DNA from: Sphaerolaimus hirsutus
Taxonomy: Eukaryota; Nematoda; Chromadorea; Monhysterida; Sphaerolaimidae
Length of the DNA: 64,000 bases
Assembly: GCA_964036195.1 (NCBI GenBank)
Contig: OZ038457.1
Span: forward strand, 16,767,147 to 16,831,146
Reading direction: 5' to 3'
The position numbers and the translations under genes were made by a program. Within the stretch, counting starts at the first letter, position 1, and each line of letters starts with the position of its first letter. The notes below the pieces were generated by a model, which saw nothing but the letters and a program-made list of their open reading frames with translations, made no database searches and was not told where the DNA came from. Positions 460 through 62,026 of the stretch are shown here, one piece after another.

Positions 460-3400
460 TTACACCTGAGCTGCAGATCTGGGCCCTCCGTTCACATTGG
501 CACCGTTGCCGAACTGATTGTGCATTTTGGCGCGCGCCATGGCAGTGGCCGCGTGGTGCGCCGCTGCGCCGGGCCGGCCAGGCACGCTCTGCACCACCAA
601 AACTGGCCTTTTCACGGCGCCGGCGTCCTTGGCACTGTGCCCGGGCGTTTGCGTGGCCAGCGGCGTCCTCGCTCTATTCACAATCTGCGTGCGTCCGGCG
701 GCGCGGCCGCCGACCCGCTGCTGCAGTTGCGCCGTGGGCGACGAGCGGCGGCCGTGCAGCTGCGACGCGGCGGCGGGACGCGGCCGCGGCAGCGACGTGG
801 ACCGACGCGGCTTGACTTGAACGCTGGACTGCTCGCCGCTCGGCCCCGCCGCCGTCACACCAGGTGAACCATCTGCGAGTGGGCGGAGTTTATGTGTGTG
901 TTCCCGTCAACGCTGTATCTGTCCACTGCAAAAATGTTATTGGGCAAATCGTTGTTGGTGTTGAAAAATATCGATTGATCGGTATCAATAAGAATACACA
1001 ATGAGAGATAGTAAATATATACTGGTGGTGAAAAAGCGAAAGGACAATGTGCCTACACACACTAATTGATGTAAGTTGTCAATAGAAATTTCAATTAAAT
1101 GTGTAAAAATAACTTTTTAATCACTCAAGAAATTCTGTTTCATAAAAAATTCTTAACTCATTTGGATGGATCCACATTTAACGCCGGGTCCACTAGTGTG
1201 CGTAGGACCAATACAACAAGAACATGTAATTGCGCACGAAAAGAACTGGAAAACTATCGATGGCACGTTGTCGATACGGACAAACAAGGCAATGCAGGGG
1301 AAAAAATCGTGATGCACCACAAACAAACTGTTAACATAAATATAAAGCACAGCAAGCGGGAAGCACTTACTCATTACTCGTATGGCGGCTCTATTAGCCG
1401 GCTGGACTATGACACCATGCGGTCGCCCATTGGGCAACGTGCCAAAATTGGTATTGTATAAATGTGGAGCTCCATATATATCCTCCACATAGTCGCCATC
1501 CGCTGTCAAATGTCCGGCGACCTCTAAATCAGCGACATTTTCCTGCTGCTCGAACATCTCAATGGTGCCGCTCAGCGACGCGATCACCGCGTCCAGTTCC
1601 GACATTTCTCCCGCTTCCTACATTTTTTCATCGTAGAAGTGACGAAAACACGGCGACAAAATGGCTAGCATCTAGACACGGATACAGTCACGTGACAGCG
1701 TCGCACAGACACCAATGACAAAACGTGATGCTCAAATGATCAACTCTTACGCTGCATGCACCATGTAACGGTAAAGGAATCGTTGCTACGCACACTAGTT
1801 TACTAACTGAAGTAAACTCAAACTGGGTGCTCATGAATCAGCTTTGAATGTATTTGAGTTTACCAGAATGAGTTATTTTAAATCTTCGTCAACTGTAGTT
1901 GACAGACACCTCATTCTGGTAAACTCAAATAAGTGCAAGGCTGATTTAGGAGTTTACCAAAATCTGAACTTTACTGGCAGTAAACTAGTGTGTAAAGCGC
2001 CATTAGGTAAATGGATATGAAAAAATGCTAGGCGAGACGTGAAAATTACACAACTTACGTGCGCTTGCGGTGCGGCACCGCTTTGATTGCCCCGCCTTTT
2101 CGAGGTGCCTTGACCGGTACTCGGTTTCTGCGGCGCCTTGTGTCCACTGCTCGCATTGGGAGAGTTCACGCTGCACACCGTATCCGTACTGCTCGTGCTG
2201 GCTGTATTGTGGTAATGATGGGGAATTATAGATTTCAACAATTCGAAAAAAGAGTACGCAATTTCGACGACGTAGGCTCGCTATTCATCTGAACCCGCTA
2301 CTCATCTACACCCGGCACTCACCTAGATCTACCTACTACTCATTGCAGATTGCACGTCTGTAGCCGTCGTGCATTCCGAGGAGTGTAGATGAGCACCGGG
2401 ACTAGATGAGTAGCGGGTTCAGATGAGTACCAGTGCAGACTCATTTCGACAATGTCACCAACTCTGAGTGGGGAACAATCTGAGCGGCCTGGCGCCGGCG
2501 CTGCTGGGACGCGCCGCGCCGGTCGAAGCAGCAGATGCGGTGGACGCGTAGCTGGCGGCGGGCAACGGCAGCGCGCTGGAAGACATCGGCCGCGACGCAG
2601 CCGACATCGCCGGCGGCTGTTGCGGCGTCGGCGCCGATCTCGTCGCCGTGCGGCGGGGAGAATCTGAGCGCGCACAAACCGAGACCGATTTACGTGTCAT
2701 TTGACTGAAGTTGCTACAGTGTTGTAGTATCGCTCGGAGCTTTTTCAAAGTGGCTTTTTAAAATAGAAAACAGGTTACATGATAAAAACCTAGCTGTTGA
2801 AGAACCAATAAAAGTATCAGTAAATACCGGTAAATCGAGTAAATTCTCAGAAAATCACCCATATTTTCAAACGCTAACCATAAACCTTTACCACAGAACG
2901 TTGGCCACGCTGAGTTCACCCTCCCAACAAACCAAAGACATCAAAAGAAAACACCGAGCAAAACTGACACTGCACAATCTCCTCCTCTGAATCGCCAATT
3001 CTATAGTCACCATAATCGCCCATGACCATCCTATGGCTCATGGACTGGCTGCGGTTCTGCGTCCACTGAGGCCCCGCCTGCCTGTTGTTGTACTGCTGGG
3101 AGCAGTCCCAGACCCTGTAAAATGTCAAATGTCATGCAAAGTGTCAAAAGTCATGTAAAATGCCCTGCAAAATGGCAACTCGGTTGCCATTTTGCAGGGC
3201 ATTTTACATGACTTTTGACACTTTGCATGACATTTTACGTTTTACAGGGTCTGGGACTGGCACCTGAAAGTGCTGCGCGTCGGAGTCGAGCATGCGGCCG
3301 CTGGGGCTCGTGCCGCCCGACCGTGGCGGACTGATCGCGCCCGAATTGGGGCCGATCAACGGCGTCGGCGGCATTTCGCTGTTGGGCGAACTGAGCGACG

Positions 3401-6400
3401 TGGCGTATTTTGTTTAATTTAATTTACTTAAATTAAAGTTATTTTAATATAATATTCAAATACAAAAAAATTTGCACTTAAAAGTCGTTTACGCGGCCCC
3501 GTGTGCCAAAGAATAAAAAATAAGAGAGAAAGTTCAATAATTCCGGAATGAACTTCCATATCTGCTACCGACAAGTGAGATTCGTTGTCAAATGCTTATA
3601 AGTCTTGAACTGCATGCTCAAATAATCTGCAAAGCGGCATGCTTGTACTCTTCTTGACTAGTGAGCACACTTTACTGCCTATTCTTGCAGATATGGAACT
3701 TTGATTCGGAATTATGGAACTTTTTCACTTAATTTCATTTAATAAACGCTGTAAACACTTATACAAACTTCCACACATCACCCTACTTTACACCAGACAA
3801 TGTCGCATAACCAAAAAACACAATCGAGCAAATGTAATCTCCAACCACCAAAACCGACCCAGGTCCAAACGGAGACTGCCGCCCCAGCGGGCTACCCGCC
3901 CCGGATCCGAGACTCATGGATCTAGCCGCCTGTCCCGGCCGCGGCGCCGAATGCCCCATACTGTAATACTGGTAGGGGGACATCGCCACGCCGGTCTCGG
4001 ACGCGTCGCCGTAGCGCGACGCGCTTTGCTGAGAAGTGACAATGGGTTTAGGAAGATTGGCAGACGATGAGGAAAACGTTTGAGGAAAGTTTACCGTATT
4101 TATGCGAAATACCCCCCCCCCTCGAAATGGACACTATGAATTTATAACACCCCCCCCCCCCCGAAGTTCCCTCGGTCCGGAATGATGTAATTTACATCAC
4201 GTACATGATGTGTTTATTGCTGCCAGTTTGCATCGCAGCTACACATTTTCTAGTTTGTGTAGCGATGCACGTTGTTATGTCCAAACGTATACCATATTTG
4301 GACACATCTATCACTAGTTTTGGATACTGAAAGCATAAACTATAAACTTAACTACTATAAATTTCACGAAAATTTCCGACGAAAAAATACCCCCCCCCCC
4401 TCAACATTTGCACTATAAAAATAAACCGAAAAAATTCGAAAGAAAAAATACGGTACCTGTTGATGCTGCCTCGCTTTGGCCAGGATATTCTGTCGAATCA
4501 AGTTCAAGTCCTCCTCCTGCGTGTGGACGATCTCACGCAGCGAGTTGTTCTCTTGTCGTTCGCGGTCGAGCGCGCGCCGGGTGTCGTGCAGTCGCTGCAC
4601 AGCGGCAGACTCTTTGGACAGCGAATCGTCCAGCTGCCGCCGCAGGTGCTCCAGCGTGGATTGAAGCTCCGCCTCTGCGAGTGAGTTTTTTGGGGTGAAT
4701 ATGTTGTGGTGGTGTCTCACGATGTCAAAACTCCTGGAAAAAGGAAAGTTTTTTTTGCTTACTTTACGAACTTTTTTGCACCAAAGTTTTGTTCTGCCGC
4801 TGTGTTTTGCATTGTATTTTTGTATTTTCGGACAAAAATACCGTAAAAAAATTCGAAAACGTCCAGAAAAAATCCGATTTTTCCGAAAAAAATCCGTGTT
4901 TTAGAAGTGAAATAAGAATAAAAAAAAGTTTTTGATATTTTGTTTGCCGTCGTTAATGGTGTCGAAAAATAGCTACGAAGAAAGTACACCCAAACCCACG
5001 AATGCCGGGGGTGGAAGGTGGTCGGTGTGTCGCTCGCTCCTCAGCCAAGCGCACCAGAAGCTGCTTGCGTTCTTGCAGAAGATATAGCACCTACAAAAGA
5101 GGCGCGATTTAAAGCTCACTACAGCGGAAATTCAACTTTAAAGTGCAGATCTAACCATAGCTTTGTGTCTTTCCTTCTCATCGAGCAACAACTTTTTCTG
5201 CTGATCAAGCTCCTGCTGTAACTTTATTATCTCCGCCTTGGAGCCTTCCATCTGCGTCAAAAAACGAATTAGATACAGATACACGTAATTTTTATAGCGA
5301 AATAACAATTACAAAAATAACGAGCTGTTACTGGGGGCTTTTCCCATTTTTTCGAAAATCTTTTTTCTTACTTCGATACCCTGAAAAGGCCTACACATTA
5401 AAACACCGTGAACCTTCCCCAAAAAAACTTTTCAGCCATCTATCCCTCCGGAGGAGCGATTTGTAAATATCTATCGAACCCCCACAAAGGTAAAAAAAAT
5501 GGAGATCCCTGCTTCACTAGTGGTAAACACGGCGGACATGAAACTCTACAATGTTAGTGGACTTAATTCCCAATACTTATGTCTCACGTTCAAGTTTGGA
5601 CGGATGATTCTCACTCAGTTCATGGTCGATATTACTTTTGTGCGACCATGTGATGTGAGAACAAAACGTTTTTGCATTTTCGGCTCAATGACACAGTTGA
5701 AATCGAACCGGGATGTTAGATACATATGCGAAAGGTGCCAAAATAACACGTATGTATCCTAACCCACAGGCAGAAAGAGATGTACAGATAAAGTCGTGTA
5801 AACGTAAAAATTATCATTGCGAAACGAGTGAAATCACCTTCGTTTTAACACAACATGAACTATTCAAACATTATAACCATAGGATATATCAATTGTTATC
5901 TAATTTCTAGCAGGGGTATCTTGAATTTTGACCCTCCGAGTGGTTGGATAGATAGCAAATCGCTCCTCCGGAGGGATAGATAGCTGAAAAATTTTCTGGG
6001 GGGGGGTTGGGGGGGGGGGGTTTGGGGGGGGGGTTGTGGTGGTTCGATATATAGGCTTTATCGGGGCATAGAAGGAAGAAAAGGGAGAAAAATCGCTAAA
6101 AGTACGTGTAAAATAGCTCAAAATGGGTATACAAGAGCATATAGTACTTAAAAAGCTGAAAATAGGCAGTTAGACACATGAACTAGTGATTTTGGAGGTG
6201 AAAATCTATATATAGGTATGAAAAATAGCGATTGGGAGCGAAAATTGGGGTATAGTTTTTTTTAGTCACATGCACCATTTACTTACACCACGTTGCTTTT
6301 TACTGCTTTTATCACAACCCACAGTAGCGGTTCCAACCGGAATTTTAGTGAAGTGAACCACAAAAAAAATTCACCTCCCCCCTTAGTCTCTCCCTCTCGC

Positions 6401-9400
6401 CTTCGAGCGCGGCGCACACGTCGTCCCCCTGGGCCGCGTCCGCCTTCGACCTGGCCGACATGGCCTCCAACTCGCGCAGGGCGCGCGCGTGCCGCCGCTC
6501 CGCCGCGTATAGAACCTGCGCGGGGTTGACGTTTGTAAGTATTTAAGTGGGTTGATTTGTGCGGTTTGGTGACTGACATGTTACGTTGGTGGTGGATACG
6601 TTCGTTGTTGATCAAATACACTAATTTGTTCGCGTCCGGAAATAAGATTGGGCCCAAATACACTAGTTGACATCGCAAATTGGTGTCAACTGAATGTCAA
6701 CTAAATAACACAGAAAAAATTTATAGAAGCAACACACTTAACAGAAACAATGCAAATTCACATGCTCTATCACACAGCAAAGTTGACATCATATAATTAA
6801 CCAAACCTTTGTTGAATTTAGTTGACACAAATTGACATGTCAACTAGTGTGTGGCCAATTGAACCAGCGCTAGGCAGCTTTTGAGAACTTTTGTCTGAAG
6901 AAACAAAATTTTCTTAGCGGCTACGTGTGAAAAATTGGTAAACAGAAACAAGTCCCCACACCGATGAACAAATGGGAATTGACCTCTACTATGTCCAACA
7001 AAAATTTATGAAAACCATCAGAAAAAAACAAGACCACATGTTTCCACCCCCGCACACCAGCTTCAAAACACCGAATCAAAACACCTGACCGCCCAGACAA
7101 AGCCTACACTTGTACGTATTATGTATTTAGTTTAGTCGACAGGTTTTTTTACAAATCATGTCGACAAGAGCAGCCATTTCAAAGACAACTAGCCGATCCC
7201 AGACCCAGCTGTGCTAATAGCACAATTGCGGTTGCAGCGGTCAATTAACATTCTATCCAGTCAGTACCGACACGCACAGCTGACTACGTGAATGTTAACG
7301 CGTGTTAAACATTATCGCGAATTATTTATGCTCGCAAGATACTCATTTGTAAAATTCCATGGCGCCGGTGCCAATTTTAACGCCGCAAAAAACACGAGAG
7401 CGATCACCGCCGAGCAATTTCAAGGTCCATTTCGACCGTATACTAGGCGGACAGCACACCTAGTATGGAAACCTACCATAATTTAATGAATAAAATCTTG
7501 TGATAAATTACGAATTCAATTATTCCATAGTAAAAATAAAATAAAATGAAAAAACTGCCTAGTTTTTGGTCCATTATTCAGATGGGTTATGGTAGGTTTT
7601 CATACTAAGTGTGATGTTCGCCGAGTATACCTATTTTATTATTCCGACTGCATATCGCATTCCCACTCGCAAACGCATGCGGCTTTAATAGAGCTAATCC
7701 GGGGTGGAACAAATCCGCGCCGCCACTTTGTCAATACACAAAATAAATAAACCGATTTCGAGGGGATTATTGAATTGCGTAGACAGGTCGAGAATATCGC
7801 ACAAAATTATTTTTATTTGCATTATTGTGAGCAAGGAAGAAGAAAGCAGCACCTTTGTAAATATAAATACTTAGACACTCAATGAAAGAAATGAATAAAA
7901 AAACTACCGCATTTGTTGTCAACTACAAAAACTATCAGAATAGCCAATAACCGACACCTTTTACCACGGTTATCTAAAATGTGACTTAGCGCTTATTCGT
8001 GTGAATAGAACTTAAATATCTCTGAGAAAAGCCTTAAATTTCTCTCTAAAATATAAATATAAATGCCGTATTTCAGGTATATTTTCTTGTATGTTTCAAA
8101 ATCTTTCAAAAAGTATACCTAATCCAATCTCTCTGGAATACCCTGGGAAAATATAGATAGTTTTCATATTTTCAATATAAATACCCCAGAAATTTTTTCA
8201 ATGCTAGTCTCAGTTGACAGCAAAACCGCAGTTGGCATCAAAGTTTGGAACCGCTATGACCTTGTACGGACTGAGAACACACCGACAAAAAAACTATCGC
8301 CGCATGCAAGAATGCGTACTCTTTCAGTGTAAAAATTTCGTGTTCTAAACCAGCAGTGTTGTGTAAACCGAAAACAAAAATGTTGTGACTGAACCAGAAC
8401 TAGTACAAAACCAAAGGGCCTATTCTGCATTGCAGGAAAATTACTACACAGTCAGCAAGAACACGTTCGTGCAGAGGGGCCGGAGTTATTTAAAAACATG
8501 TTTGACATGACATTTGACATTTATTCAAAATGCCCACCTCGCCATTCAACATGAAAACGTGAAACGTTAAAAATACGATCGTCCGAAGCAAAGTGAGCAG
8601 CTTTTTACCCAACGGCAACCCACAAAAACAACCCTTCCGCGCCCCAAACAGACCTTCTTAGCGCGCTGATGCGCCCGCCTCTGCACGTCGATGAGCGCGT
8701 CCAAGTGCTTCAGCTGGCTGTGGCACATGGCGGCCACTTCCGCCTCGTCGATGGGCTGGTCGTCGGCCAGGCTGTCGCGCTGCAGCGCCGCCCACGGATC
8801 GGTGGCCGGGCCGGAGCCGCCCAGCTTGCCGTAGCGCGCCGGCGCTAGTAGGTATTTGGCTCGCTCGCTCTGTGAGAGGATTTATTACTAAATGTTGACA
8901 ATTGATACTTATTTGATAATGATTAAGTTGTCACGTCACATTTGTGCAGGATTGTGTGATACGAAAAGCGATTTGGGGAAGTTTGCTGTTTGGAGAAACA
9001 TATTCATTCATTATCACCCGGGGAAAACGCACTTTCAGAGTTGCAATGGCAACATCTCTGGCTTGCAACTCTCCTTCTAAATAGCTGAGCAATCTAAGCA
9101 AATCGACACGAGACAGTCCATCAGTACGGGTGCTGCCGCCGCCAGACGATTGTTGTGACGATGTTCGCTGAAAATGGCAATGAGCCAAGATAAAATCGAA
9201 ATGCATATTTTAAAATGCAAATTTTTTAGGGCAACATACTAACAAAAAACAACTAGAAAACAGTAGTTCCCAATTTTCGTTCGACAATAAATACCATGGA
9301 GCCATCTGCCAAGTACCAACACCTGATGTACCAACAGTATACAGGATACTGATAAGGACACAAAAAAGGTCCACAAGCCCCGCCCATGGCTTGTGTTTCG

Positions 9401-17800: not shown

Positions 17801-20800
17801 TCAAGACCCAGCATCGGTACATCATCGGCGAGCGCGGCTCCGGCCTGGCCGACATCCTCAAAGAGACTGGCGTCAGTGTGGAAGTGCCACCCGAGCAGAG
17901 CGACTCTTGCACCATCACGCTTAGGTATACTCGGCGTACATGATACTCTGCCCTCGCACTGATTTATGTCTCGTGTTGGAAGCGTGCCAATGATCATTTA
18001 ATCATGCGATTTCCGTAAAAAGATGAAAAAAATTCATCGATGTGTATATGTTAATGAATAACACTATAACAACAATCAATTTTACATCTTTTTATGCAAC
18101 TCGCACGCGTTCACCATCGTTGGCACACTTCCAGCTGGAACCACGCGTGCAAGGTGTAAAGTAAGCGGAGTATATGTAAATATTTACGTACATGTCTGTA
18201 AGCGTTTACGTGTTTACGTCTTTGTCACAACTGGGGAGTTCCATTCTAAAAGTTCACAAGCGCCAAATCCAGAAAAATCGAGTTAAGCGTGGATTTGACC
18301 TCCACGTATAGTTTTTCACATTTTAGAAAAAAATCAGCGTTGTAGTCCATTTCGTTCCCGAGATACAGTGGTACCGTTTTTCAGAAAAATCACCATTTTC
18401 ACATCGAAAGTGCACAAGTGCTCAGATCCCCTATGAAAAAACAGGACTTTCATTTCGTAAGTGCACATATCCATCTCGGACCACCGGAGTTTCATTTCAT
18501 AAGTGCACATATCCAAAAAATAGTTTCATTTCCAAAAATGCACGCGTGCTTCGGCGCGGCCGCGAAGAGCTGGCCGGAATTCCCATTCAAAAAAACAGTT
18601 TCATTTCCAAAAATGCATACGTGAATTTCCAAATCTATTTTGCACTATAAATCAAATATGCGTGCATATATTGATCTGAAAATTTAGGTAGAGGTACTTT
18701 TAGACGCGGGCTTTGCAGTGATGTGATTCGTTTTATCCTACGATGCACCGTTAAGAAGTTATTAACCATTTAATTTCAACTGTTCAGATTTGTTCCCAAT
18801 TTTTCCCTATTCGAAATATTTTTTTAATTTTCGATATTGATTTTCAATATTAAAATGTAGTCGATATCCTATATTCAATATTCGATAGAATACATCGTTC
18901 GAACCCTAGTCACAACCATCTATGTATTAGGGTTCAAACGGGATCCTAATCCCGAAAAATTTCGGTATTTAGCTGTCCCGATCCAGACACCCTCATCCCG
19001 ATCCTGAAATCTCAAAAAATAATCCCGAAACCCGAATCCCGATCCCGAAAACTAAAAAAATCCCGATTCCGAAAAGTCAATCCCGTTTGAACCCTACTGT
19101 GCACCCTACTTTACTTAACCCTCGTCCCTGCCCGTAGGGGTGAACAAACCCGTCTGGCGCTGGCGCTTCCGCTGGTCTACCGCAAGGCGTCGTCGGTGAT
19201 CACGGCGCAGATCGACTGCCCCGCCTGGCTGCACCGCTACATCATCGGACAGAAGGGCGCCACCATACAGGAGATTGTGGGCGAGGACAAGAAGGTGAGC
19301 TTTTTGGGGACAGTATGAGGATGTTTTTATTGTGTAATATATTCGGCGGACATCACACTTAGTATGGAAACGATCTGAATAATGAAGAATGAATTATACA
19401 GTTTTTTCATCTTAATATTCCGTTTTTACCATGGAATAATTAATTACGAAATTTATCGCAAGATTTTATTCATTAAATTATGGTAGGATTCTGCGCATAG
19501 TTTGCGGTCCGCCGAGTATACGATAGAACCGTAGCATGTTACTGCCCATGCAATTGAGGTGGCCAGGAAAGAACAATTTGCCCGTAGTTGGCATTGGATC
19601 ATGTATTTGACGGAATTATTGTCCTATTATGTTGTACTGGGTTGAGAAAACCAGCGATTGTGAACGCCCTTTTATAGTATTCACATTCCAAATTCCTCAA
19701 GACTCTCGCTTCCCAATGGAATTTTCACCTGACCCTCACTTTACAGGTGCAAGTCGATTTCGACGACTCGGGTCACATTTTTATGCAAGGACCACCCGAG
19801 GGCGTCCGTCGAATCGACCAAGCGCTTCGTGAACACGTCGACCGGCTGCAGAAAGATCTGGCCGTGCAGAAGATCAAAGTGCCCGTCAACTTTCACAGAC
19901 ACGTGATTGGCAAGGGCGGCGGAGTCGGTCTGTGCAGTGCATTTTTTCGCAGTTTCGCTAAAAAGGGCCCATACACTAGTTGACATTGAAATTTGTGTCA
20001 ACTTAATTAAGTTTATTATGTGATCTCTATGTGATTGAGCATAGTCATTTGATATCGTGACACTTAATTCTCATTGTTTATGTTAATCGTTATGGTTAAT
20101 TTTTTTTGTGTTTTAGTTGACATTCAGTTGACACGAATTTGCGATGTCAACTAGGGTTGGGGAACCGACCCGAACCGAACCGAACCGAGAACCGACCACT
20201 ATTTTGGAACCGAGAACCGAGAACCGGAACCGAGCTTGAGAACCGAACCGGAACCGAGAACCGGCACTTATACCCGGAACCGAAGTAAATACCCGAAAGA
20301 ACCGAAATTTTCTAAGAATCTTAAAGTTTTTAAACAGCGTTTTTTCAACACCTACATCTAAGCTTTTTCACAGCAGCTGAACATCTTGGTGCGTGTTCAG
20401 AATTGCAAAATTCATCTGTTTGCAAAATGATTGCGCGGGAGCGTATAATTTCACATATACTCCAGCGACATTACACCTTACAATGAAATCTACCATATCC
20501 CACCTGAATAAAAGAACAAACATAAAAAAATTTCATCATATTTATCAAATTGCTTTGATAAATATGATGAAATTTTTTATGTATGTTCGTTTATTCAGAT
20601 GGGATATGGTAGATTTCATTGTAAGGTGTAATGTCGCTGCAGTATACACATTATCACTGGTAGTAGTTTTCATTGATTTTGTGGCAGTTTCAACCGTAAA
20701 GTTATTTATGTTTGTACTCAAAATAATACTCAATAATAATCGTACTCACTCGCGTACTACATAAATACATTTACGTTTCCTCCAGAAAAAAATACCAGTA

Positions 20801-26800: not shown

Positions 26801-29800
26801 CGGTTCCAAAAGATTTCGGTTCGGGTATCGGTTCTCGGTTCCTGAAAATTTTCGGTTCCGGTTCTCGGTTCGGTTCTTAAACTCGGTTCCGGTTCGGTTC
26901 TTTCGGTTCTAAAATGATGAAAATTTCGGTTCCGGGTAATAAAATAACCGGGTATCGGGTAATAATCGGCTGAACAACAGAAAAACAATATACCCAAGTT
27001 TACATGTGTAAGTACATCGGTTGGATATTTCATACTACAGGAGCATATCACAGCTTATTATTTCATGGTAAAATGCAGAAATCAGAGTTGTTATAATCAT
27101 ACTGGTATTTTAAAAAGTGTAAAAGCAAACATATACGTTTTCTGTACTCGCGTACTTTCAAAACGTACACGAGTAAATGAGTACTGGTATTTTTTTCTGG
27201 AGGAAACGTAAATGTATTTATGTAGTACGCGAGTGAGTACGCGTATTTTGAGTACAAACATAAATAACTTTTGCCAACTACGGCCACACAAAACTGCCAC
27301 AAAACCAATGAAAACTACTACCAGTGATAATGTGTATACTGCAGCGACATTACACCTTACAACGAAATCTACCATATCCCATCTGAATAAACGAACATAC
27401 ATAAAAAATTTCATCATATTTATCAAAGCCAGGGGTCTCCAGGATTTTGGCCCTCGCGGGGGCTGGATAGATAGCAAATTGCTCCTCCAGAGGGATAGAT
27501 AGCTGAAAAATTTTTCTGGGGGGGGGGGCTCGCGGGGGCAAAATATATAGGCTTTTTCAGTGCATAGAGGGCCGAAAGGGGGAAAAATCGCTAATAATCA
27601 GTTAAAAGTGGCCAAAAGTCGGTTTAAGATGGCTAAAAACAAGCATATAACCATGCATATAGCCGGAGAGCACGATTTTGAAGGTGAAAAACTATAAGAA
27701 GGTGCAAAAATTAGTGATTTTGAGTGAAAATTGGGGCAAAATTTCTCAAAAACCTCACTCAAAATTTCTCACTCCAGATAGATAGATAGCTGAGCGATTT
27801 GGGGGGGGGGGTCTTCGGGGGTAGTAGGCAAAAATTTTGCCTCAGGATAGATAGATAGCTGAGCTGCCTCCGGGATAGATAGATAGCTGGCGGATTTGGG
27901 GGGGGCAGCCCCCCCCCAGCCCCCCCCTAGGAGACCCCTGATCAAAGCAATTTGATAAATATGATGAAATTTTTAATGTTTGTTCTTTTTTTCAGATGGG
28001 ATATGGTAGATTTCATTGTAAGGTGTAATGTCGCTGGAGTATATGTGAAATTACATGCTCCCGCGCAATCATTTTGCAAACGGATGAATTTTGCAATTCT
28101 GAACACGCCTCAAGATGTTCAGCTGCTGTTTAAAGGCTTAGATGTAGGTGTTGTAAAAACGCTGTTTAAAAACTTTAAGATTCCTAGAAAATTTCTGTTC
28201 TTTCGGGTATTTACTTCGGTTCCGGGTATAAGTGCCGGTTGTCTGTTCCGGTTCGGTTCTCAAGCTCGGTTCCGGTTCTCGGTTCTCGGTTCCAAAATAG
28301 TGCTCGGTTCTCGGTTCGGTTCGGTTCGGGTCGGTTCGGTTCCCCAACCCTAGTTGACACCCAGGGCCGTATCCAGGGGGGGGGCGGGGGGGCTGCAGCC
28401 CCCCCCCCCTTCCGGGTGAGGCATGAAAAACGCAGGAAAATACTACTTTCGGTATCAATTTTTGAGGTGTTTGTAAAAATTTTTGCGCGCAAGCGCGCAT
28501 ATTCCACCACACAAGCAGTATTTTCAGTAAATCAGTCGCTTTAGACCCAACTCCATGTGAAATGGACTCAATTTTGTGCCTGCTGCACTATATGTATGTA
28601 TTTTTACATACATATACAGCCGTTCTAAGCGCCAGCGCCAACGCCAATGACGCCATGGCGTGACGCCTATGTATGGCGCTGGCGCCAAAACACCATTCCG
28701 CGTCTGTGTAGGGGAAATTTTAGGGGGGAGGGGGCTCAGCCCCCCCCCCCCCCCCTAGCCGGGTTCCGTAAACAAGCAGCCCCCCCCGCTCAAAAATCCT
28801 GGATACGTCCCTGTTGACACCTGATGTCCACGTACAGTGAAACTTCTGTGAAACATAACGATCTTTCCAGGCGCTCGTGCCCATCACGGTCACAGTGCCG
28901 GTGCCCTTCGACATGCACGGCTCCCTGATCGGCAAGGGCGGCGGCGAGATCAGAAAGTTCATGAACACCTACGATGTGAATGTGCGCGTGCCGCCCGGCC
29001 AGGAGCGTCGCGATGAAATCTACCTGACCGGCACAAAGGTGAACGTGGAACAGGCCAGGCAGGAGTTGGATGTGAAAGTACAGCAGCACGCCGACGATAT
29101 GAAGGATAGGGTCGGTTTGAAACTTCCTGGCTGTGTCACCTGGTGCCAGTCCCGCACCATCTAATGTGTGAAGTAAAGTGTCAAATATCGTGTAAAATGT
29201 TATGCAAGAGTCAATTGTGATGACAAATGTAAGTAAACTGTCAATTGGCATGCAGAGTTCAGTGATAAATTTTTGCATTTTTTTATATTGACATTTGACA
29301 CTCAACTTTACACTTTACAACGATTACTCTACGATGATATACCGCCAACAAACCTCTCCCTCAGGAACTCCGCTCGTTCGAAGCCCGTCTATCGATCCCC
29401 CAGTCGTACTACCCGCGTTTGATCGGGCCCAGGGGCAGTGCTATCAACGCTCTGCGTGCCAAACACGACGTGAACATTACCATACCACAGATGAATGTGA
29501 CCGCTGAGGGGGCGCCCAATGACATTGTCGTCACTGGCTACGAGAAGAATGCTGAGGCTTGCAAGCAGGAGATCTTGGATATGGTGCAGGAAATGGAGGT
29601 GGGCTTTGGTGTTGTGTTTCAGGTGTTTTTTGGCTGAGGTTATTCAGTCTGACATGTTTTTCGGGCGGCTTTTTGACACTTCCAAGTGCCAAAAATTAAT
29701 GAAAACAAACACCAATGTCAATATGTCAATTGCGTGCTTGTGCGGAAAAAGTGCAAACTGCATTGTGAATAAAGATTTAACATGAAGAAAAACGGTTTCA

Positions 29801-32800
29801 ATGCTTGCTTGCTTTGAACACCGTTTTTATATTTTTTGAACGGTTGACAAAACCGAGATCCACAGACAACAATATTTACATTATCTGCCACTTCACATAT
29901 GCCTATTCTTGTTCTTTACCTACTTTAGAGCCATTTTAAAGCATCTTAATTAAATTTTTTTTAATCAATTGAATCTTGAACAATCTTGAAAATGAATCTT
30001 GAAAAATGCAACAATTTATTTTAAAAAACTATCTTTTTCCCACACTAGTCTACCGTATTACCTCGAAATACCCCCAGGGTTTTTTTTTATTTCGCCAGCA
30101 AAATTTGAGGGGGGTTATTCGAGGGGGGGGGTATTATTTCCCCAGCCCATTTTGAGCGTGGTTAATTCGAGGTAATACGGTATACATTTTCCTGATCGCA
30201 GGCGATGTTCCGCCAAGAAATCACCTTGGACCACCGCGTGCACTCGCGAATCATCGGGCCGAAGGGTCGCAACGTGAAAAAAGTTAAGGACGACTTTAAA
30301 GTGGAGATCACTTTCCCGCCGCCGAACGCGGCCGACCCGAACGTGGTCACTGTGGTGGGCAAGGACGAAGACACCGTGTACGACTGCATCGACCACCTGC
30401 GTCTGCTCGAGCAGGACTTCTTGGAGGTGCGCCTATATGTGGCTTTAGTTGGGCGAATGCGTTGCTTTGTTTTGTTTCTGAACGAAATATATTTAATGTT
30501 GAAATCAATATGGAATATCGTCAGCAATACCAAACTTAAAACCGTATTAAAATGTTGACGGTCAACGTCGTATCTTTCCAAGTCTAGGAATTCAAGGTTA
30601 CAATCTCTATCACACGGTACACGTGAAACTCTTACATCCACATTCGAACTTTTTGGCATGTGCGGAAATGGTATTTTAAAAGTCTGTATTTTTGGAAAAA
30701 AGGGTCATTGCGAAAATATAAAAGGCATTTGAATTCTTTCACCACAGGACATGGTGGACCGTCCTTCGCAAAAGCGCAACGTGGAGCTGGGCGACTTCGC
30801 CGGCGACCAGCTGGCGCCCGCGGCCGCGCACAAGGACGGCGCCACGGCGGCGACGCAGCCGCACGCGCAGCACGGCGAGGTGAAGATCATGAACGCGCCC
30901 TGGACCGCGCCCGACGTCAACTCGGCCCAAGACTTCCCCTCGATTGGCGGCGAGCAGAATGGTTAGGGCCCTGTTTACTGTGATGATGGTTTTGTGGATT
31001 GAGAAAGAGTGTAGGACTGAGTATTAAGACTCGCTTTGCGTAAGAACCAAACCTGTGAAGGCACAAAATTTTTTTTGCGTATTTTATCGTATATTTCGAA
31101 TCTACATATAGAAAAACTCAAAATTTCTTTCCATACATATATTCAAAAATGTCATCTTCCTACTAAAAAAATTGATCAAAGTCAAAAGTCACCATTTTTC
31201 GAGCTGTTTTTTGAAAATTCATAACTTTTGCTTGACTTCATCTATCAATATAATATTTTGAATTTTTATTAAGATAGTTGTGGAGATTAATTGGCCCATA
31301 CAATTACAAACTTATTTCATCAAACGTTTTTTTCTCACCGAAAATCATGACTGAAATTTTGAAAATGGCACCAAATTTTCAGTTTGTAATTGAGAGCTTA
31401 GCTTTTTATGCAAAAACTGTGCTCAATTGCATAGTTTATTATAATAAAAAAATTTCTAAAAAGTAGGAATTCACTTTTTTGCTACAGCAGTTTAAATCAG
31501 CTAACCCCTGTCTCACCATCACATACGATCCAACTCTGAAGGCTCAGATGAAGTTGCATGAAAAAAGTTTCGATCATAAACATAGGTTATTTTTGCATTG
31601 TCTTTCATTTGTATATCACCATTTTTCATTAAACATAATTTGGAAGGGTGCTTTCATACAAAAATTCACTTTTGATGTAAAAAAATTGCACCTCCATTTT
31701 TATCATTAATTTGGAATCTACAGACATAGAAACTCAAAATTTCCTTCCATACATATATTCAAAAACGTAGTCGTCCTACTAAAAAATTTGGTGCCATTTT
31801 CAAAATTTCAGTCATGATTTTCAGTGGGAAAAAAACGTTTGATGAAATAAGTTTGTATGGGCCAATTAATCTCCACAACTATCTTAAGCGGCGTTTACAC
31901 TGCGAGCTGTGCCAGCAAACTTTTTTCTGTCGGCAATGGACATTTTGTCACGACAACGCACAAATTTTACAGAAATTTTGCCTGTGCCGACAAAAAAGCC
32001 TCGTTCAACAGAAACCGAACCGACAACAAAAAAAGCCTCGTTGGAACCGAAGCAAACCGACAACCGCTGACATGTCATACAAAGTGTCATAAGTCATGTA
32101 TAATGTCCTAAATTATGTCAAATATGCAGTAATAAAAAATTGACAATTTACAGGGCTTTTAGCATGACTTTAGACAGTTTATTGTTCACTATCACCCACA
32201 AATGATTACACATGCTTGACTGTGGCGCCCTTGGCACCTGGCGCCACTTTTCTGAATGGTTAAATGGTGACATTGTATCTTGCGCTTTCCCATGGGAAAC
32301 AAATCGTCATCACAATATTGTCGTCACAGAAAACACGTTCGCAGCTTGTGACGGCAACACGACGATGAACCGAAACATTATCGACGCGCTCAGCGTCGTT
32401 TTTGCTCAATTTGTCGGTTTGGGTCTCATTAACGAGACCCAAACCGACAAAAACAAAATAAGACAAAAAATGCCCCACAAAGTAAAAAATAGGGTGGGCG
32501 CGCAAGGGGGACATAATAAATTTGTTTTTTAAATATAGGTAAACTCGGCAGCATAGCTGAAATCAAGGGTAGCATTTCGAGGGGGGGGGTCGGCCTGCCG
32601 GCACGTGTTTATATCTCGGGAACCGCTGGGTGAAAATTGTAGATTTTTTAATATAATATGGTTTCAGGTCGGGGCTAGTTACAAGTCCGAGGAAATTTTG
32701 CTATGATGCCCCAGACCGGAGATAGAGTCGGTCGATAAAAAGATGGTCATTTGCGAAATTTTTGCGTGTAGCTCAGAACATGCGAACTTTGAACATCAAT

Positions 32801-37127: not shown

Positions 37128-38145
37128 CAGGGTTGGCAAAATCTCAGAAAAGAATAAACATAAAATAAAAATAAAATGGAAAATTGAAGAATAAAATAAA
37201 ATAAAATGGAAAATTTCAAAATAAAGATAAAAATTGTATAAAAATTCGAATTTTTGTAAAATTTTTGTAAAATTGTATACAAATTAATATTTTTGTAAAA
37301 ATTGTATAAAAATTCATATTTTTTGTAAAAATTGTTTCTGTTGTTTATAGTTCAACCTGTTCATTCGCGGAGCTGGGGCAGTCCCTAGCCATGTAAAGTG
37401 TCAAAATTTCATATGAAATGGAATGGAAAGTGTCAATTTTCATGAAAATGTTAAGTAAAGTGTCAATTGGTATGACAAAAATAAATAAAAGTGGAAACTG
37501 TAAAGCAAATTGTATCCAAATTTTATCTTTTGTATCCAAGTCTTATCTTTTGTATCCAAATCTTGTTGTTTTTGTAACCAAATCTTATGTGAACATTTGG
37601 ATACAAAAACATAAGATTTGGATTACCAAAATATAAGGTTTGGATACCAAAACATAAGATTCAGATACACAGTTTACACTCTGCACGACATTTGTCATGA
37701 CAATTATACTTTGCTTGACATTTGAGATGCCAATTGACTCTTTACTACATTTGTCATGACAATTGACACTTTGCATGATGTTTTACAAATGTACCCAGCA
37801 CACTCCAGTAATCCTTCTACTGAAAATGCAAACCATTCTTATCGATAATTGTAACTTAACACTTGCAACTAGCTAACAATACCTACTGCATGCAACTTTT
37901 GCAAAGTAATGGTAAAATTTGTCACACGTTTTTTATGTTTAGGTCTAATTATCACATTTTTCTGACCTTGCATGCAAGATTCTGATTTTTTGTAAAATTT
38001 TTGTAAAATGGTCCATTTTATTATTTTATTATTATTTTGGAATAAAATAAAATAAAATGAAACAAGAATAAAATTAAAATAAAATACATTTTTATACAAT
38101 TTTTATACAATTTGTATACAAATGATTTTTATAAAACCAACCCTG
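37128..38145. mobile_element. CAGGGTTGGC...CCAACCCTG hAT-like element
   Basis: The inverted ends are CAGGGTTGGC and AACCAACCCTG. GTCATGTC is duplicated at 37120-37127 and 38146-38153. Subterminal AAAATAAAATAAAATGG tracts are inverted. A nested hairpin related to the introner family (CAGTCCCTAGCCATGTAAAG) occupies about 37375-37795. No coding frame. Confidence 0.82.
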
Positions 38146-39127: not shown

Positions 39128-42100
39128 ATGAAGTTACTGCTATTGCTTTGTTTCGTTGCGGCAGCGAGCGCCGACTATGAAGAGAAGCGGCTTCAAGACG
39201 ATCTTTTGCGTGATTACGGCAGCGTCACCGCCCGGCCCGTCAGGTGGGCAGTCCCAGACCCTGTAAAAAGTCGAATGTCATGTAAAGTGTCAAAAGTCAT
39301 GTAAAATGGCAAAAGCACGTTTGCCATTTTACAAGGCAGTTAACATGACTTTTGACACTTTGCATGACATTTGACATTTTACAGGGCATTTTACAGGGTC
39401 TGGGACTGGCACCAGAAACCACTCCGATGCAGTCGACGTCACTCTGAAACATATCCTGCACGGCTTCGACTTTGTCAGTCCTCAATGTGTTTTTTCTGTT
39501 TGTTTTACCTACGCTCAACTATTTAACTGATATTTTTGCAGTGCACCAAGTCCAGGAAGCTGCACGTGTACATGTGGGAGTCTCGGGTAAGTTGATCGAG
39601 AAAATGTGAACCTCGGCGGAGTTGCTTTCTTACACAACTTTTTGCTGTGGAAAGTATTTACCTACTGCACATTTTTGATTTCATGAAGCTGTTTCGTCAG
39701 GCGGCAATCCCGCACCTTGTAAAGTGTAAAGGAGATTTTACTGAACTTATAACACGTAGCATGACAATCATAGTTGTTAAAATGTATTTACGTTTACTCG
39801 ATGAATAATATGTCATACTCGAGTACTGCGTTTTCTGTAAATACGTTTACTTTTCCTTCCGACAAAAAAACCAGTGCTCACGTACTGGCGTAGTTTTTGA
39901 AAGTACGCGAGTACAGAAAACGTAGTTGAGAAATTTTTTGGGGTGCATAAAAAGCAAAAACCACACAAACGAATTTAAACGTGTATTTTATGGGACATTT
40001 TTCAGAAATTTCAAATTGCAATTTTAGTTGAAGAGTTTAGTCCTTTTAGTTTTAGTTGAGCTTTCTTCAAGTTGAACACCTTGAAGAGATTACATCATAG
40101 AAATATTAAAAATAACCAAAATGCCATCTGTTACCTACCGTATTTCCTCGAAATACCCCCCCCCTCGAAATACCCCCCCTCGTTTGACCCCCCCCCCCCC
40201 TCTCGAGATCACTATGAAACAATCACCCCCCCCTCGAAATACCCCCCCCAGATTGAGTGTAAAGAGAACGTACATGACAAATACAGCAGTTTGTGTTCTG
40301 CGTAGTGCAGAACACACGTTAAAACAATGTTGGAATCACGTTAGAACAGTGTTTTTACCATCTACGTACTAATATTAGTATACAGGAGTCAATACATGTC
40401 AGTTATTGATGCATTTTTCTAGCCCAGCGCACATCACAGACCACGATTTTGTACTAGGATTTCAAAAAATTTCCTGTGAAATAATACCCCCCCCCCTCGA
40501 AATACCCCCCCCCCTCGTTTAACCCCCCCCCCCTCTCGGGAGCACTATGAAACAATCACCCCCGGGGGTATTTCGAGGAAATACGGTATATCTTCCAGTG
40601 CAAAAATCACTTTCACATATTAAAAGTAGTCGCTTTCACATCTTCAATGAGAAAAGTACCCATTTTTTACATATTCTATGAAGTAAAGTACGACTCGAAT
40701 AATCCCCTGGGTAATTATCTTTTCATCAGACTTTTTTGAGGGGGGTATTCGAGGGGGAATTATTTTTTCCTCACTTGTCTAAGAGGGTGGAGTATATACG
40801 GCACTCGTTTGACCATTTTCCTGGAAAAAAGTCTTTTACTCCCTTTTACTCATGACTACGGGTAAAAAAAGCATTTTATATTTTATGTACCCAGGGGTGA
40901 GTAAAAAAGTATTGTACATATACATACATATATACTCGCCAGACATTATGCGAGTCAATGGTCTAACGAATTTTTGTACAAGTGCCATTCTAACCCAATT
41001 TCATTGTTATTGACACTCGTATTTCATGCGTAGGGATGACCATCAACAAATTTTTCAATTAGATAAGTGAACGTCACCGTCGAAATTTGAATTTAAGATC
41101 TACACTTGATAAATATACGATAATTTCTTATTATTACGAACATAGTGAGCATTTTATGTTATTCAGAGCAATTTTTAGATTTTCAAAACGATCCAGATTT
41201 CGCTAGTGGTGTACAGTGTACAGGGTCGTTCTTCCCTTGTTCTATCGCACGCACACATACGTACTTTTTTGTTGGAATTTGTCCGGGCTGTTACAATAAA
41301 ATACCTTGTTATCTGCTTTCATATGACAATATGCGTGTTCAGTTTATCCTGTTCTCGCATAAAACGTCGGATTGAATAAGATTTACCATGAATCGATTGG
41401 AATGCATTCATTCAAATTCAAAATTAACTTATCAATTTTAACGAAATTTAAAATTGGTACGTAAGGGCCGAATCACTGATTCCTTTCATGTCTGCCGAGT
41501 TTACTTATTAAAAACTTCAGTAATTTCAACAACTCTGCTTGTTTGTAGACCTGGATTGATCAGAAGTTGACGTGGAATCCCGAAAAATACGACTATGCGA
41601 CGGACACGCGCTTTGCATCTGATCAAGTTTGGACGCCCGATTACGTGCCCTACATCGGGTATGTGCGCAGATTGCAGTTTCCTTTTCTACTTTGTCCTAA
41701 AAAAGCAGCCAACCATCGCAGCGAGTTAGAGCAGATGCTGGTCGACGCGATAAAATATCCGATAGTCACCTATTCTGATGGCCTCATCAATCACATCCCC
41801 CCATTAAAGTATACCCTGCCTTGCCGCCTCCAGGAATATGAAGGAGAGGTGTACAAATACACGTGCAGACTGAGGAGTGGAAGTTGGACCTACAGCAGTC
41901 AGTTGACACGGTATCATTTTATTTACCCGTGTATCCTCGAATAAGAACCCCCTTGAATAACCCTCCCTTGAATAGCTCCCCCTGTTGGCCGAGTGAAGAA
42001 AAATTACTCCCCTTGAATAACTGCCCCCACTTGAATAACTGCCCCCACTTGAATAACTCCTCCGTACTTGAATAACTCCCCCTCTGCAATAGATAGAAAA

Positions 42101-47965: not shown

Positions 47966-48179
47966 GGGGCCAGTTCCGCAAGTGGAGAAGTAAATGCGGA
48001 AACGGCAAGAGCAAAAATGAAATGTCAAGTGAATCGACAAAGGCGATGTAAAGTGAGAAATGAAATGACACTCTACTTCGCTTTCGCCGATGTAAATTAT
48101 TACTTGCCACTAATTACTTGCCATTTCACTTCGCTCTTGCCATTTGCGCTTTCACTTCTCCACTTGCGGAACTGGCACC
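47966..48179. mobile_element. Hairpin element with GGTGCCAGTTCCGCAAGTGG ends
   Basis: It runs from GGGGCCAGTTCCGCAAGTGG to CCACTTGCGGAACTGGCACC with inverted AAATGAAATGTCAAGTGA-type arms. It is intergenic, so the family is not confined to introns. Confidence 0.75.
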
Positions 48180-51900: not shown

Positions 51901-54900
51901 ATGCCATTGGCCACATCTGCATTGGCAGTGCCATCGTCCCCGTATCTCTGCGCGGCGGACGCGTCGCCGCCCGACGACGACGAGGCGGACCTGTCGGCGA
52001 CGAAGCGCTCGAAGCTGGCGCGGTCCAACGTGACGCAGGTGCACCCGTCGGCCGAGCTGACCACCACGCTCGCGGCCAACTCGCCGTCGCTGAGAGTGTA
52101 GTGGCTGGTGGTTGAGCAGATGGGCGAGTAGAAATTGAGTTGACCTATTATAAAGGTTGACGAGTTCGAATTTTGAAAACATTTGTTAGGCCAGGAAATG
52201 ACATCTGGGGCTACTCGCACATTTTCGTTATTTTTCATAAAATTTATGACCTCACGTGCCCCTTTATGATAGTTCAAATTTTGGGCTAAAAGTCCACAAC
52301 TGCCTTGACTTGTGCAGCCTTTTGTGGACTTGTCGACTTTTAAAAGTAGACGCCTAAATTACAATTAGTCGTCTATTGTAAACAGCCAATTTTAATTATC
52401 TACACTGTCGTGGTGAAGAATCCAATTTTATAAAAATTCAAAAGTTTGAGATACTTTTGCAAACGATCACACGAACTCCATTTCACGCTAAAACTCAAAT
52501 TTTAACGCCAGCACAACTCAAAAAAAGGTTCCTCACCCAGTCAGCGCTCTCTCCCCAAAATACCCTCCAGTAGTGAGCACGCTGACAGTCTTCTCGCCCG
52601 TGTGCAGTAAATTGGCCCTGGACGCGGGCAACTCAGCCGCGCCCAAATGGGGCGGAGCCAAGGGGTGTGCGACGCGCTGCGTCACGTGCACCTGCCCCTT
52701 GGAGATGATGTAGAAGGTGGCGCCGTGCTCGCCCTGGGCGCAGTCTCAGACCCTGTCAAATGTCATGTAAAATGTCAAATGTCACGAAGAAGTGTCAAAG
52801 TCACATAAAATGCCCCGCCATTATTCAGGGCATTTTACGTGACTTTTGACATTTTGCGGGACATTCTACATTTTGCAGGGCATTTGACAGGGTCTGGGCT
52901 TGGCACCTGCCGCACCACGTACTCGCCGTACTTGTAGCTCTGCTCGTCCAGCAGGTCGGCCACCCGGTGCAGTTCGGCGTCGGCGAGCGACGAGAACAGC
53001 GGCACGCTGAGTTCGGCATTTGTGCATAAAAATGTGCTTTCAGACTAGAACTCCACTTGAAAATTGGACTCGAAAATTTTAAATTATACTTTGGCTACTT
53101 TCGGATATAAAGTGCGGGTTAGGGTAGTTCGATTCCAAAATATTGTGGGTATTCGATTCCCAACCCTACTCAACACACCAAGTCGTCGGCGTTGATAACA
53201 AGTAGAGCATCATTATCGACATAATTAACACCTTTTCCTTGTTCGAGCGATTTCCTTTGTTCGACGCCAACAAGTTGAAAATACCACAAGATAACTTTTA
53301 GAGAACACTGGACTTATCAAACCCTTAAACCAGAGACGTCACTCCCTTTTACGAAACACAGCAACCAATGACAGAACTGACACACCAACAACCAAAACAC
53401 AGAAAGATCCCAACCTTTTGAGCAGGTTCACGTAGTGCTGGTGTTTGGCCATGCCCGTGCGAACCATGATCGCCTGGAAGGTGTGTCGGTTGATCGCCCA
53501 CAGTCGGCATGGCGTCACCGCTGCAAACACGCATACATTCAACTTTTTCAGGACGTTAGTGACCAGGGGGTATTCCCACCAGTGGCAAAGTACTTTACTC
53601 TTCAATTACTCTCAACGTTTCCTTACGTTTAACTTTCGATTTACCATTTTGCTATTTTTAACTTTGCCCTTTTTACATCTTTACATCACTTTTTGTTTAA
53701 ATTTAGTCTTCTCTGTACTTTTTAATTTACGCTTTACTTTGCCACTTGCAGAACTGGCCCCATATTCAACGTTCTCATAACTAATACCCATAATAGTATT
53801 CGGTTACAATTCGTAATTAGGTTAGCTTTATTTACACAACGACTGCAGCAAACACACTGCATAATTGACAATAGGTCAGCAGTCAAATGCAAATCTTTTA
53901 ACGGGTTTTTACTTTGATTAATAGATAGGAACCAATTTAGTTGACGGACACCATTCTTCAGTAATCGCTAACCATTGGTCAACCAGTGTGTAGCCACTTA
54001 CAGTCACCCCCCATTCAGAGACCCCAGGTCAAAAATCCCAGAACCCCCTAAAAACATCGCGCGCCATCAAAAAGCACCTGCGACTATGGACTGGTTGAAG
54101 ATGCGGTTCAAGAAAAGCAAAAGCGGCTTGGCCAAATTCGCAGTGTTGAACAGCACAAACAGCGGGTCGTCCGTCAGCAACAATTTTACGTTCAGCGATA
54201 TGTTCATCATTCTTGTATCAATTCAAAAAGCCTCCAAGACCTGTGTCTAAATTGCGAACGAGACCGTCACTGGATTCGCGGGACCTCTCAACGAAAATTT
54301 GACTGAAAGCTCGAAACTCTCACGTCTCCCATGTAAATTTGAGCCTTGGAAGTCTGCCAAAAATAATCAGGTAGACTGGCGGACGGGTAAATAATGTAAA
54401 TCGGTCGCCGGAACTGATTAGTATCAGATCGACGGAATAAACGCGGCCGAAAATAGAACTTTTCAGCGGCAAAGTGTCCTCTAAGCAACGTTCGCTCAAG
54501 CCCCGTCCACACAGACGCCGTTAATATCCCAGCACAGCATTTTGTTATTGATGGTGGCCAATTAAGGGTCTAGCATTAAATGAGCTAGTCGCTGATTAGG
54601 GAAAAAACGAATTTCGATTTCGATATCTTCATCACCTTTCGGTTTTGCCATAAACAGAGGAAATTGGCTGGCGCGTGACAAGCGGGCACCTTTTATAGAC
54701 GCCGAAAAAGCCCGGATTTTGGTGCGCACACGAACATTTCAAGGAAATATGGCGCGCGCCCGCCAGCCAATTTACAATGATAAAGTGCCATTAAAGTAGA
54801 GAGTCAAAACACAAACAAATTGGGCGCACCAGCCAAAAACATCCTGGACCTATTACGGTAAAAAATATGATGTCATTGAAAGTGAACATTGATTGTCGCA

Positions 54901-61397: not shown

Positions 61398-62026
61398 TAG
61401 CCGAGCCAGTATTTGAGTTGTAAATCGTTGGCAACTGCTAAGATGTGAATATTGGATAGTTTACTAAATAAATATTAGTCTGTGTGTAAATATGCATGGA
61501 GTTAGTCAGGCGATATGGGCATGAGGATAAAACACTTTTTTTGACAACTCCGTTTTAAAGTAGGTAACCGTTTTTCGAAACCTACAATATGAATACCTAT
61601 GTGTCAACGTGAATAGGTATACAGTTATAATTACGAGTCTCAGTACTTTCCCGAGTAGTTTTCATGTTATGCAAACTGACATAAACACCTGTCAAATGGC
61701 ATGCAAAATGTCAAGGGTTCAAAAAACCTTTTCTTGTTTATTTTAATTGACACTTTGCGTGACATTTGACACTTTACAGGTGCGGGAATGTGTGCTATTT
61801 ACAAGCCACTCAACGTTCAAAATGTGACGAACCCGTCACCCGGATGGAAAATTTTTAGCTCACTTGAGCTGTTTTAATGAAATCTTTATGTTATATTATT
61901 TCTTCTAATAGAAAGGCGCCCTACTATTTTTTCGTCAGCTGTTTTACCGGCCGTTCTTTTAGAATAAATGTGGTAGTTATTTATAGGAGGTTATTTGCAT
62001 TCCAATTCACAGCAGTACCCTTCTCA

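Follow-up and report, generated by a model that had tools for sequence, protein, structure and literature searches.

A non-autonomous PHIS/Harbinger-like (NuwaI-type) hairpin MITE very probably acts as an introner in the 348-Mb genome considered here, and to judge from its sequence and its borders, its predicted splicing would restore the mRNA that existed before insertion. The element came to attention in a 64-kb stretch (C13:16767147-16831146, hereafter the window), in which three introns, referred to as c1, c2 and c3, each consist of one copy. The copies and the left-hand copies of their duplicated target sites are:

3096-3263, minus strand: introner copy 1 (c1), 168 nt; the whole intron is an arm-A-first hairpin element plus the second CAG
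39244-39415, plus strand: introner copy 2 (c2), 172 nt; arm B first, tip GTGGG, acceptor CACCAG
52734-52906, minus strand: introner copy 3 (c3), 173 nt; arm A first, mutated (GTGCCAAGCCC), acceptor CGCCCAG
3264-3266, minus strand: left target-site copy CAG of c1 (last exon bases); partner copy at 3096-3098
39241-39243, plus strand: left target-site copy CAG of c2; partner copy at 39413-39415
52907-52909, minus strand: left target-site copy CAG of c3; partner copy at 52734-52736

These introns had been proposed in an earlier note on the window, and their coordinates and borders proved exact to the base, each intron being an edge-to-edge copy of a hairpin (MITE) of ~170 nt. Read on the coding strand, c1 (3263 to 3096) runs GTGCCAGTCCC...GGGACTGCTCCCAG, with the donor GTGCCA and the acceptor CTCCCAG, c2 has the ends GTGGGCAGTCCC...GGGACTGGCACCAG, and c3 (52906 to 52734) runs GTGCCAAGCCC...GAGACTGCGCCCAG. 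All three copies have GT at the 5' end and AG at the 3' end, at borders placed from the reading frames. The same note had held that nothing else lies in the intron, and this stands for all three, where only the element and one target-site copy were found between the exons. The element makes up introns in both orientations, with arm B first in c2 and arm A first in c1 and c3. The c1 hairpin has arms of 77 nt with 97% complementarity and a 3-nt loop, and as RNA it folds with -132.6 kcal/mol (z -22.8; 0 of 200 shuffles equally stable). Both strands of c2 and c3 match a three-copy profile in nhmmer, as expected of a hairpin.

The frame is open in all three window genes once the element is excised, and reading through the element meets a stop. 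In c3 the junction RQ/GE (a slash marks the junction throughout) lies at residue 32 of the query, within the cyclic-nucleotide-binding domain, and the rejoined protein aligns to PKG chains over the junction with no gap (PKG1 3shr residues 1-52, E 8e-16; the best PKG chain reaches E 3e-17 over several domains). The c2 junction falls near the gene start, in N-terminal sequence resembling a nicotinic-receptor chain (acetylcholine-receptor-chain match, E 0.02), with a ligand-binding-domain (LBD) exon downstream at 41549 (E 7e-13). Excision of c1 joins the open frame ...AQHFQ/QYNNR...; the gene had been labeled CortBP2-like, a name that found no backing in the two pieces tried, neither of which has a Pfam match at E 0.01. 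Outside the window, an OSCP1 gene at C1:3592979 (L056) is interrupted at ILEQRL/RAQN, and its Pfam match (E 3.4e-19), covering residues 25-74, includes the junction at residue 33. One element thus forms complete introns in unrelated genes, as had been claimed, in the three window genes, OSCP1 and other loci, with borders again taken from the frames.

Gene assignments were made from short peptides, and several of the Pfam matches lie under the curated cut-offs. Junction peptides, 36 of them hand-picked from 106 and representing 38 loci, gave matches to cNMP_binding (1.2e-8), PAN_1 (3.3e-6), TPR_16 (2e-4) and Neur_chan_LBD (0.022), of which the PAN match was assigned by eye to L015 and the TPR match to L012. 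Weaker matches, all under the curated cut-offs, are Tudor (0.0066), VWD (0.016) and a C2H2 finger that directly follows the junction. The gene content as a whole (receptor, PKG-like, vigilin-like KH and Srx-type receptor genes) points to an animal host; the Srx-type domain, matched at a CTG-flanked locus, belongs to a nematode-typical family and hints in that direction.

Could these be introns that already existed and were later colonized by a MITE? The element does land elsewhere, since some copies lie outside exons. However, the window introns hold only the element and one target-site copy, and the rejoined protein is seamless in both c3 and OSCP1, so that colonization of old introns appears highly improbable. 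De novo insertion into coding sequence is the reading adopted below.

The element is abundant. A 20-mer from the arm has 1,645 exact occurrences on the forward strand of the 348-Mb genome and 1,569 on the reverse strand, 3,214 in all, while its reversed control has 0 + 0; the window copies are therefore not a product of chance. The genome search for the hairpin arms that the earlier note called for thus bears out its expectation of many copies genome-wide. In prokaryote contigs and in virus contigs the 20-mer was found 0 times. The total number of elements is roughly 3,300-5,300, the lower figure coming from 37 loci chosen by similarity and the upper from 33 loci sampled on chromosomes, in each case through the share of arms that match exactly. 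Many copies show no sign of an exon location. Pairwise identity among copies averages 90%, with a nearest-neighbor median of 95%, and the family looks young; of the "active or recent" system that had been proposed, it is the recent part that finds support. The window also contains relatives that are older and degenerate:

29140-29319, unstranded: older degenerate relative (nhmmer E 9e-11), with an arm-A-like tip after CTG (CTG/GTGCCAGTCCC) still recognizable
32068-32181, unstranded: older degenerate relative (nhmmer E 3e-12)
61664-61787, unstranded: older degenerate relative (nhmmer E 3e-11)

These degenerate relatives suggest that the activity of the family, or of its cousins, may go back a long way. 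More of them lie at 37375-37464, 37667-37787 and 48014-48145, and the one at about 37375, like that at 29140, keeps the tip beside CTG.

Element borders were normalized at 80 loci, comprising 39 of the top matches to c1, all three copies from the window, and two groups from the start of chromosome C1, in which arm A is preceded by CAG (20 loci) or by CTG (18 loci). Complete elements were obtained at 70 of the 80; by the border rule there was none in L009, L014, L016, L029, L037, L050, L060, L062, L071 or L075. A non-duplicate set of 60 leaves out L011, L023, L026, L040, L041, L043, L047, L048, L058 and L083, and its medians are a length of 177 nt, a fold of -118.6 kcal/mol and 83% of bases paired. 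L038 and L043 are duplicates of one phosphodiesterase exon fragment that contains the element, flank identity being 97% downstream and 82% upstream (110 aligned bases). L081 and L083 (C1:8164448 and C1:8181010) are duplicated Srx-like receptor sequences with the element at the same site, where the flanks are 99-100% alike and the elements 96% alike and of different lengths.

The target-site duplication is a 3-bp CWG. Among the 70 complete elements the flanks are CAG on both sides in 41 and CTG on both sides in 21, with five discordant (CAG + CTG) and three other cases. The two flanks therefore agree in 62 of 70, or in 52 of 60 (35 CAG, 17 CTG) when duplicated loci are set aside, and for the 67 elements whose two flanks are each CAG or CTG this concordance has p 2e-12, a figure slightly favored by the border rule, which demanded CWG on the right. 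The two ends of the element are unlike, arm A beginning GTGC-CAGTCCC and arm B mostly GGGG- or GGAG-CAGTCCC; the arm-A end has the form GTGCCAGTCCC and the other end GGGGCAGTCCC. GTGC stands at the A end in 57 of the 60 non-duplicate elements, under a rule that required GT, and GGGG (read as CCCC) at the B end in 37 of 60.

This anatomy alters the account of the splice sites. It had been supposed that the element supplies both of them, an idea now ruled out: the donor GT is the tip of the element, and the acceptor AG is target-site sequence, belonging to the second copy of the 3-bp duplication. Of the introner reading, what survives is the occurrence of whole introns in unrelated genes and of thousands of copies; what does not is the element-borne origin of both sites, and a large CTG-flanked share (587 of 1,273 exact A-arm matches flanked by CAG or CTG) also goes against it, CTG offering no AG.

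How would such an insertion become an intron? Insertion of the ~170-nt hairpin into a CWG triplet, which is thereby duplicated, would be the work of a transposase presumably encoded elsewhere. At a CAG on the coding strand, with arm A leading, the product is exon-CAG/GTGCC...GGGACTGCCCC-CAG/exon, in which the spliceosome could pair the GT of the element tip with the AG of the second CAG; in c2, where arm B leads, the tip is GTGGG and a GT is present too. Splicing would then take out the element together with one target-site copy. Because the second CAG supplies the acceptor AG, the exact pre-insertion sequence would be restored, and to judge from the continuity of frames and domains the insertion would be nearly neutral. 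Folding suggests that the long stem may bury splice sites within the element, while those at its two ends would sit in an internal loop. Selection would be expected to retain copies in the GT...AG orientation, and a genome-wide excess of that orientation supports this step, with 861 CAG to 615 CTG at the B end (p 1.6e-10) and 686 CAG to 587 CTG at the A end (p 0.006). Under random insertion equal numbers are expected, but a transposase that does not handle its two ends alike could mimic the excess.

At odds with the GT...AG scheme are the CTG copies in exons. These may be non-canonical introns or gene-breaking insertions: they break coding frames exactly on the strand with the GT tip leading, and precise splicing there would need TG as the last two bases of the intron. 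On balance we lean towards the view that they are disruptive insertions (in redundant genes, in pseudogenes or on one haplotype) or are spliced through internal AGs, exact introns being limited to the CAG copies. The youth of the copies is in keeping with this. The alternative, held with considerable doubt, is that CTG exon copies are spliced with GT...TG borders, through a 3' splice site that tolerates UG (perhaps UG then G) and is aided by the hairpin. Slightly more doubtful still is the broader proposal of an animal introner that reads the tip GT but not the middle base of the CWG, so that many exon copies would be GT...UG introns (UG then G) whose borders are brought together by a near-perfect hairpin.

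The frames themselves favor GT...TG splicing. In a BCKDHA-like gene with a CTG copy at G/WWD, alignment to BCKDHA structures (E 1.5e-13) is ungapped over the junction, and E1_dh is matched at 1.9e-5; the Pfam scan of CTG-locus peptides on the GT-leading strand, which covered 31 of 34, also matched an Srx-type receptor (1.8e-6) and a phosphodiesterase piece (PDEase_I, 0.003). All three Pfam-supported cases, however, lie in duplicated or paralogous genes, the genome holding a second, uninterrupted BCKDHA gene with 48% identity, so that null insertions are possible and the disruptive reading gains. The peptide of L072 tells the other way, its own two halves being its sole matches in the genome; the lack of a second copy speaks against disruption. 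By eye, the coding frame is interrupted at the CTG copies L039, L068, L072, L074, L076 and L078. Nine CTG copies look coding on the GT-leading strand against two on the other, a subjective count (p 0.065) that speaks mildly against disruption.

Internal splice sites divide the nine frame-interrupting CTG copies. With GT sought in the first 30 nt and AG anywhere within the element, five (L039, L076, L078, L081 and L085) offer no internal GT...AG pair that would keep the frame and avoid stops, which argues for TG acceptors and against internal-AG splicing. In the other four (L038, L068, L072 and L074) such a pair, adding codons, is present and its use is possible, and this favors the disruptive or internal-AG reading over GT...TG splicing. 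Splicing from the terminal GT to the usual internal AGs (TTTTACAG) was considered and rejected, as it would leave 19 or 31 nt and shift the frame. The base after the right-hand CTG is G in 493 of 615 cases, whereas the mirror-image C precedes CAG in 431 of 686 (p 5e-12). This asymmetry could fit a UG/G acceptor, and in that sense weighs for GT...TG splicing and against disruption, but could also fit a transposase or transposon with unlike ends. The excess of the GT...AG orientation described above favors the disruptive reading and counts against TG acceptors, as does the statement, in the excerpted text of a study of human TG sites, that constitutive TG acceptors were not found (PMC2374985).

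Is the element removed from RNA at all? Harbinger-type elements are capable of precise somatic excision. Removal from DNA would restore CAG and CTG sites alike and need no AG, a fit that is its main attraction, yet we consider it very unlikely: the coding strand should then be immaterial, but the credible Pfam matches sit on the strand led by the GT tip, and c2, with arm B first, has a GT tip as well. On the opposite strand, all 33 of 33 peptides from CTG loci gave two chance-level matches only (0.019 and 0.042), and the 20 of 47 scanned from CAG loci gave zero; chance-level matches (0.01-0.06) are present on the GT-leading strand too. By simpler measures the strand test against DNA excision is weak. 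Open frames over the junction (±20 codons) barely separate the strands at CAG loci (29 of 35 sense, 23 of 35 antisense) and number 13 of 17 sense and 14 of 17 antisense at CTG loci, while a codon-score test is mixed (CAG, p 0.03 by the minimum and 0.32 by the sum; CTG, p 0.35 and 0.015, respectively). At two CTG loci, L077 and L084, it is the opposite strand that looks coding. There CAG precedes arm B, and a GT...AG intron would begin 6 nt into the element, leaving two extra codons in the message.

The proposed class rests on the ends and the target site. NuwaI (PHIS) transposons, described from animals only, have the target-site duplication 5'-CWG-3' and tips that are usually GGG (PMC4482050). 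The present element shares the CWG duplication and, in part (at most B ends but not at the A end), the GGG tip, and the genome contains a Harbinger-like transposase domain; it differs in being a non-autonomous hairpin of ~170 nt with one tip GTGC, and intron formation is absent from the excerpted description of NuwaI (PMC4482050). The Harbinger-type domain DDE_Tnp_4 has at least 163 matches in this genome, and any match at all occurs in only 1 of 14 control genomes. Among these matches none was tied to the ends of the element, nor did any autonomous element turn up that shares those ends. Many of them (e.g., C1:20514088-20514720) score near-identically, suggesting that an autonomous element multiplied in a recent burst. 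A candidate case of the element nested in a Harbinger transposase gene was rejected: the matches span a stop-containing insert, but the 231-nt piece read has no hairpin.

Other repeats share the window. Elements with GATAGATAG, another repeat family, lie at 5947, 20903, 25529 and 27466. Inverted arms of 371 nt (20162-20532 and 27967-28337) are 95% complementary and 7.4 kb apart. Short repeats of the form CACTAGTTGACAT...GTGTCAACT at 6661, 13151, 13257, 19974, 34884 and 58195 are perhaps a second MITE family, and motifs of the form TACCGTATT..CTCGAAATACCCCC recur at 30051, 40136, 55181, 55894 and 62028.

The origin of introns is a long-standing question, and with thousands of young copies the birth of introns in an animal would become open to direct measurement. 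The likely transposon class and the exact arithmetic of the splice sites add to the value of the family for such study. Its CAG and CTG copies amount to a natural experiment on the AG rule, with the same element at the same kind of gene site, one base apart. If true, the GT...UG reading would represent a natural, transposon-driven, genome-wide loosening of that rule.

Several known systems resemble parts of this one. Human alternative 3' splice sites also use TG in U2 introns, but they need a neighboring AG (PMC2374985), whereas at the present CTG copies the border lacks an AG. Among animals, introner-like introns are mentioned for Oikopleura dioica and for a bdelloid rotifer gene, with no hairpin or CWG duplication in the excerpted description (PMC10597677). 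The introner elements of Amoebophrya have hairpin-forming inverted repeats, short direct repeats at exon/intron borders and partly non-canonical borders; they differ in belonging to a dinoflagellate parasite and in their wide variety of borders, where here there is one family with GT...C(A/T)G borders (PMC7789003). A broad survey sought introners as similar introns whose similarity reaches near both borders; most families leave mRNA length unchanged, and the survey records introners in just two animal groups (Gozashti et al., 2022; PMC9860276). In some families, such as one in Chrysochromulina, the 5' splice site is part of the element and the target-site duplication provides the 3' site (Fig. 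2C legend; PMC9860276). That family has no terminal inverted repeats and 4-bp duplications, whereas here the whole element is a hairpin and the duplications are 3-bp CWG (PMC9860276). A further difference from introners is the large CTG-flanked fraction, which lies partly in exons. The likeness is that similar sequence fills introns of different genes from border to border, with terminal inverted repeats and short target-site duplications (PMC9860276). By the features tested, the element appears to work like introners and to belong with them.
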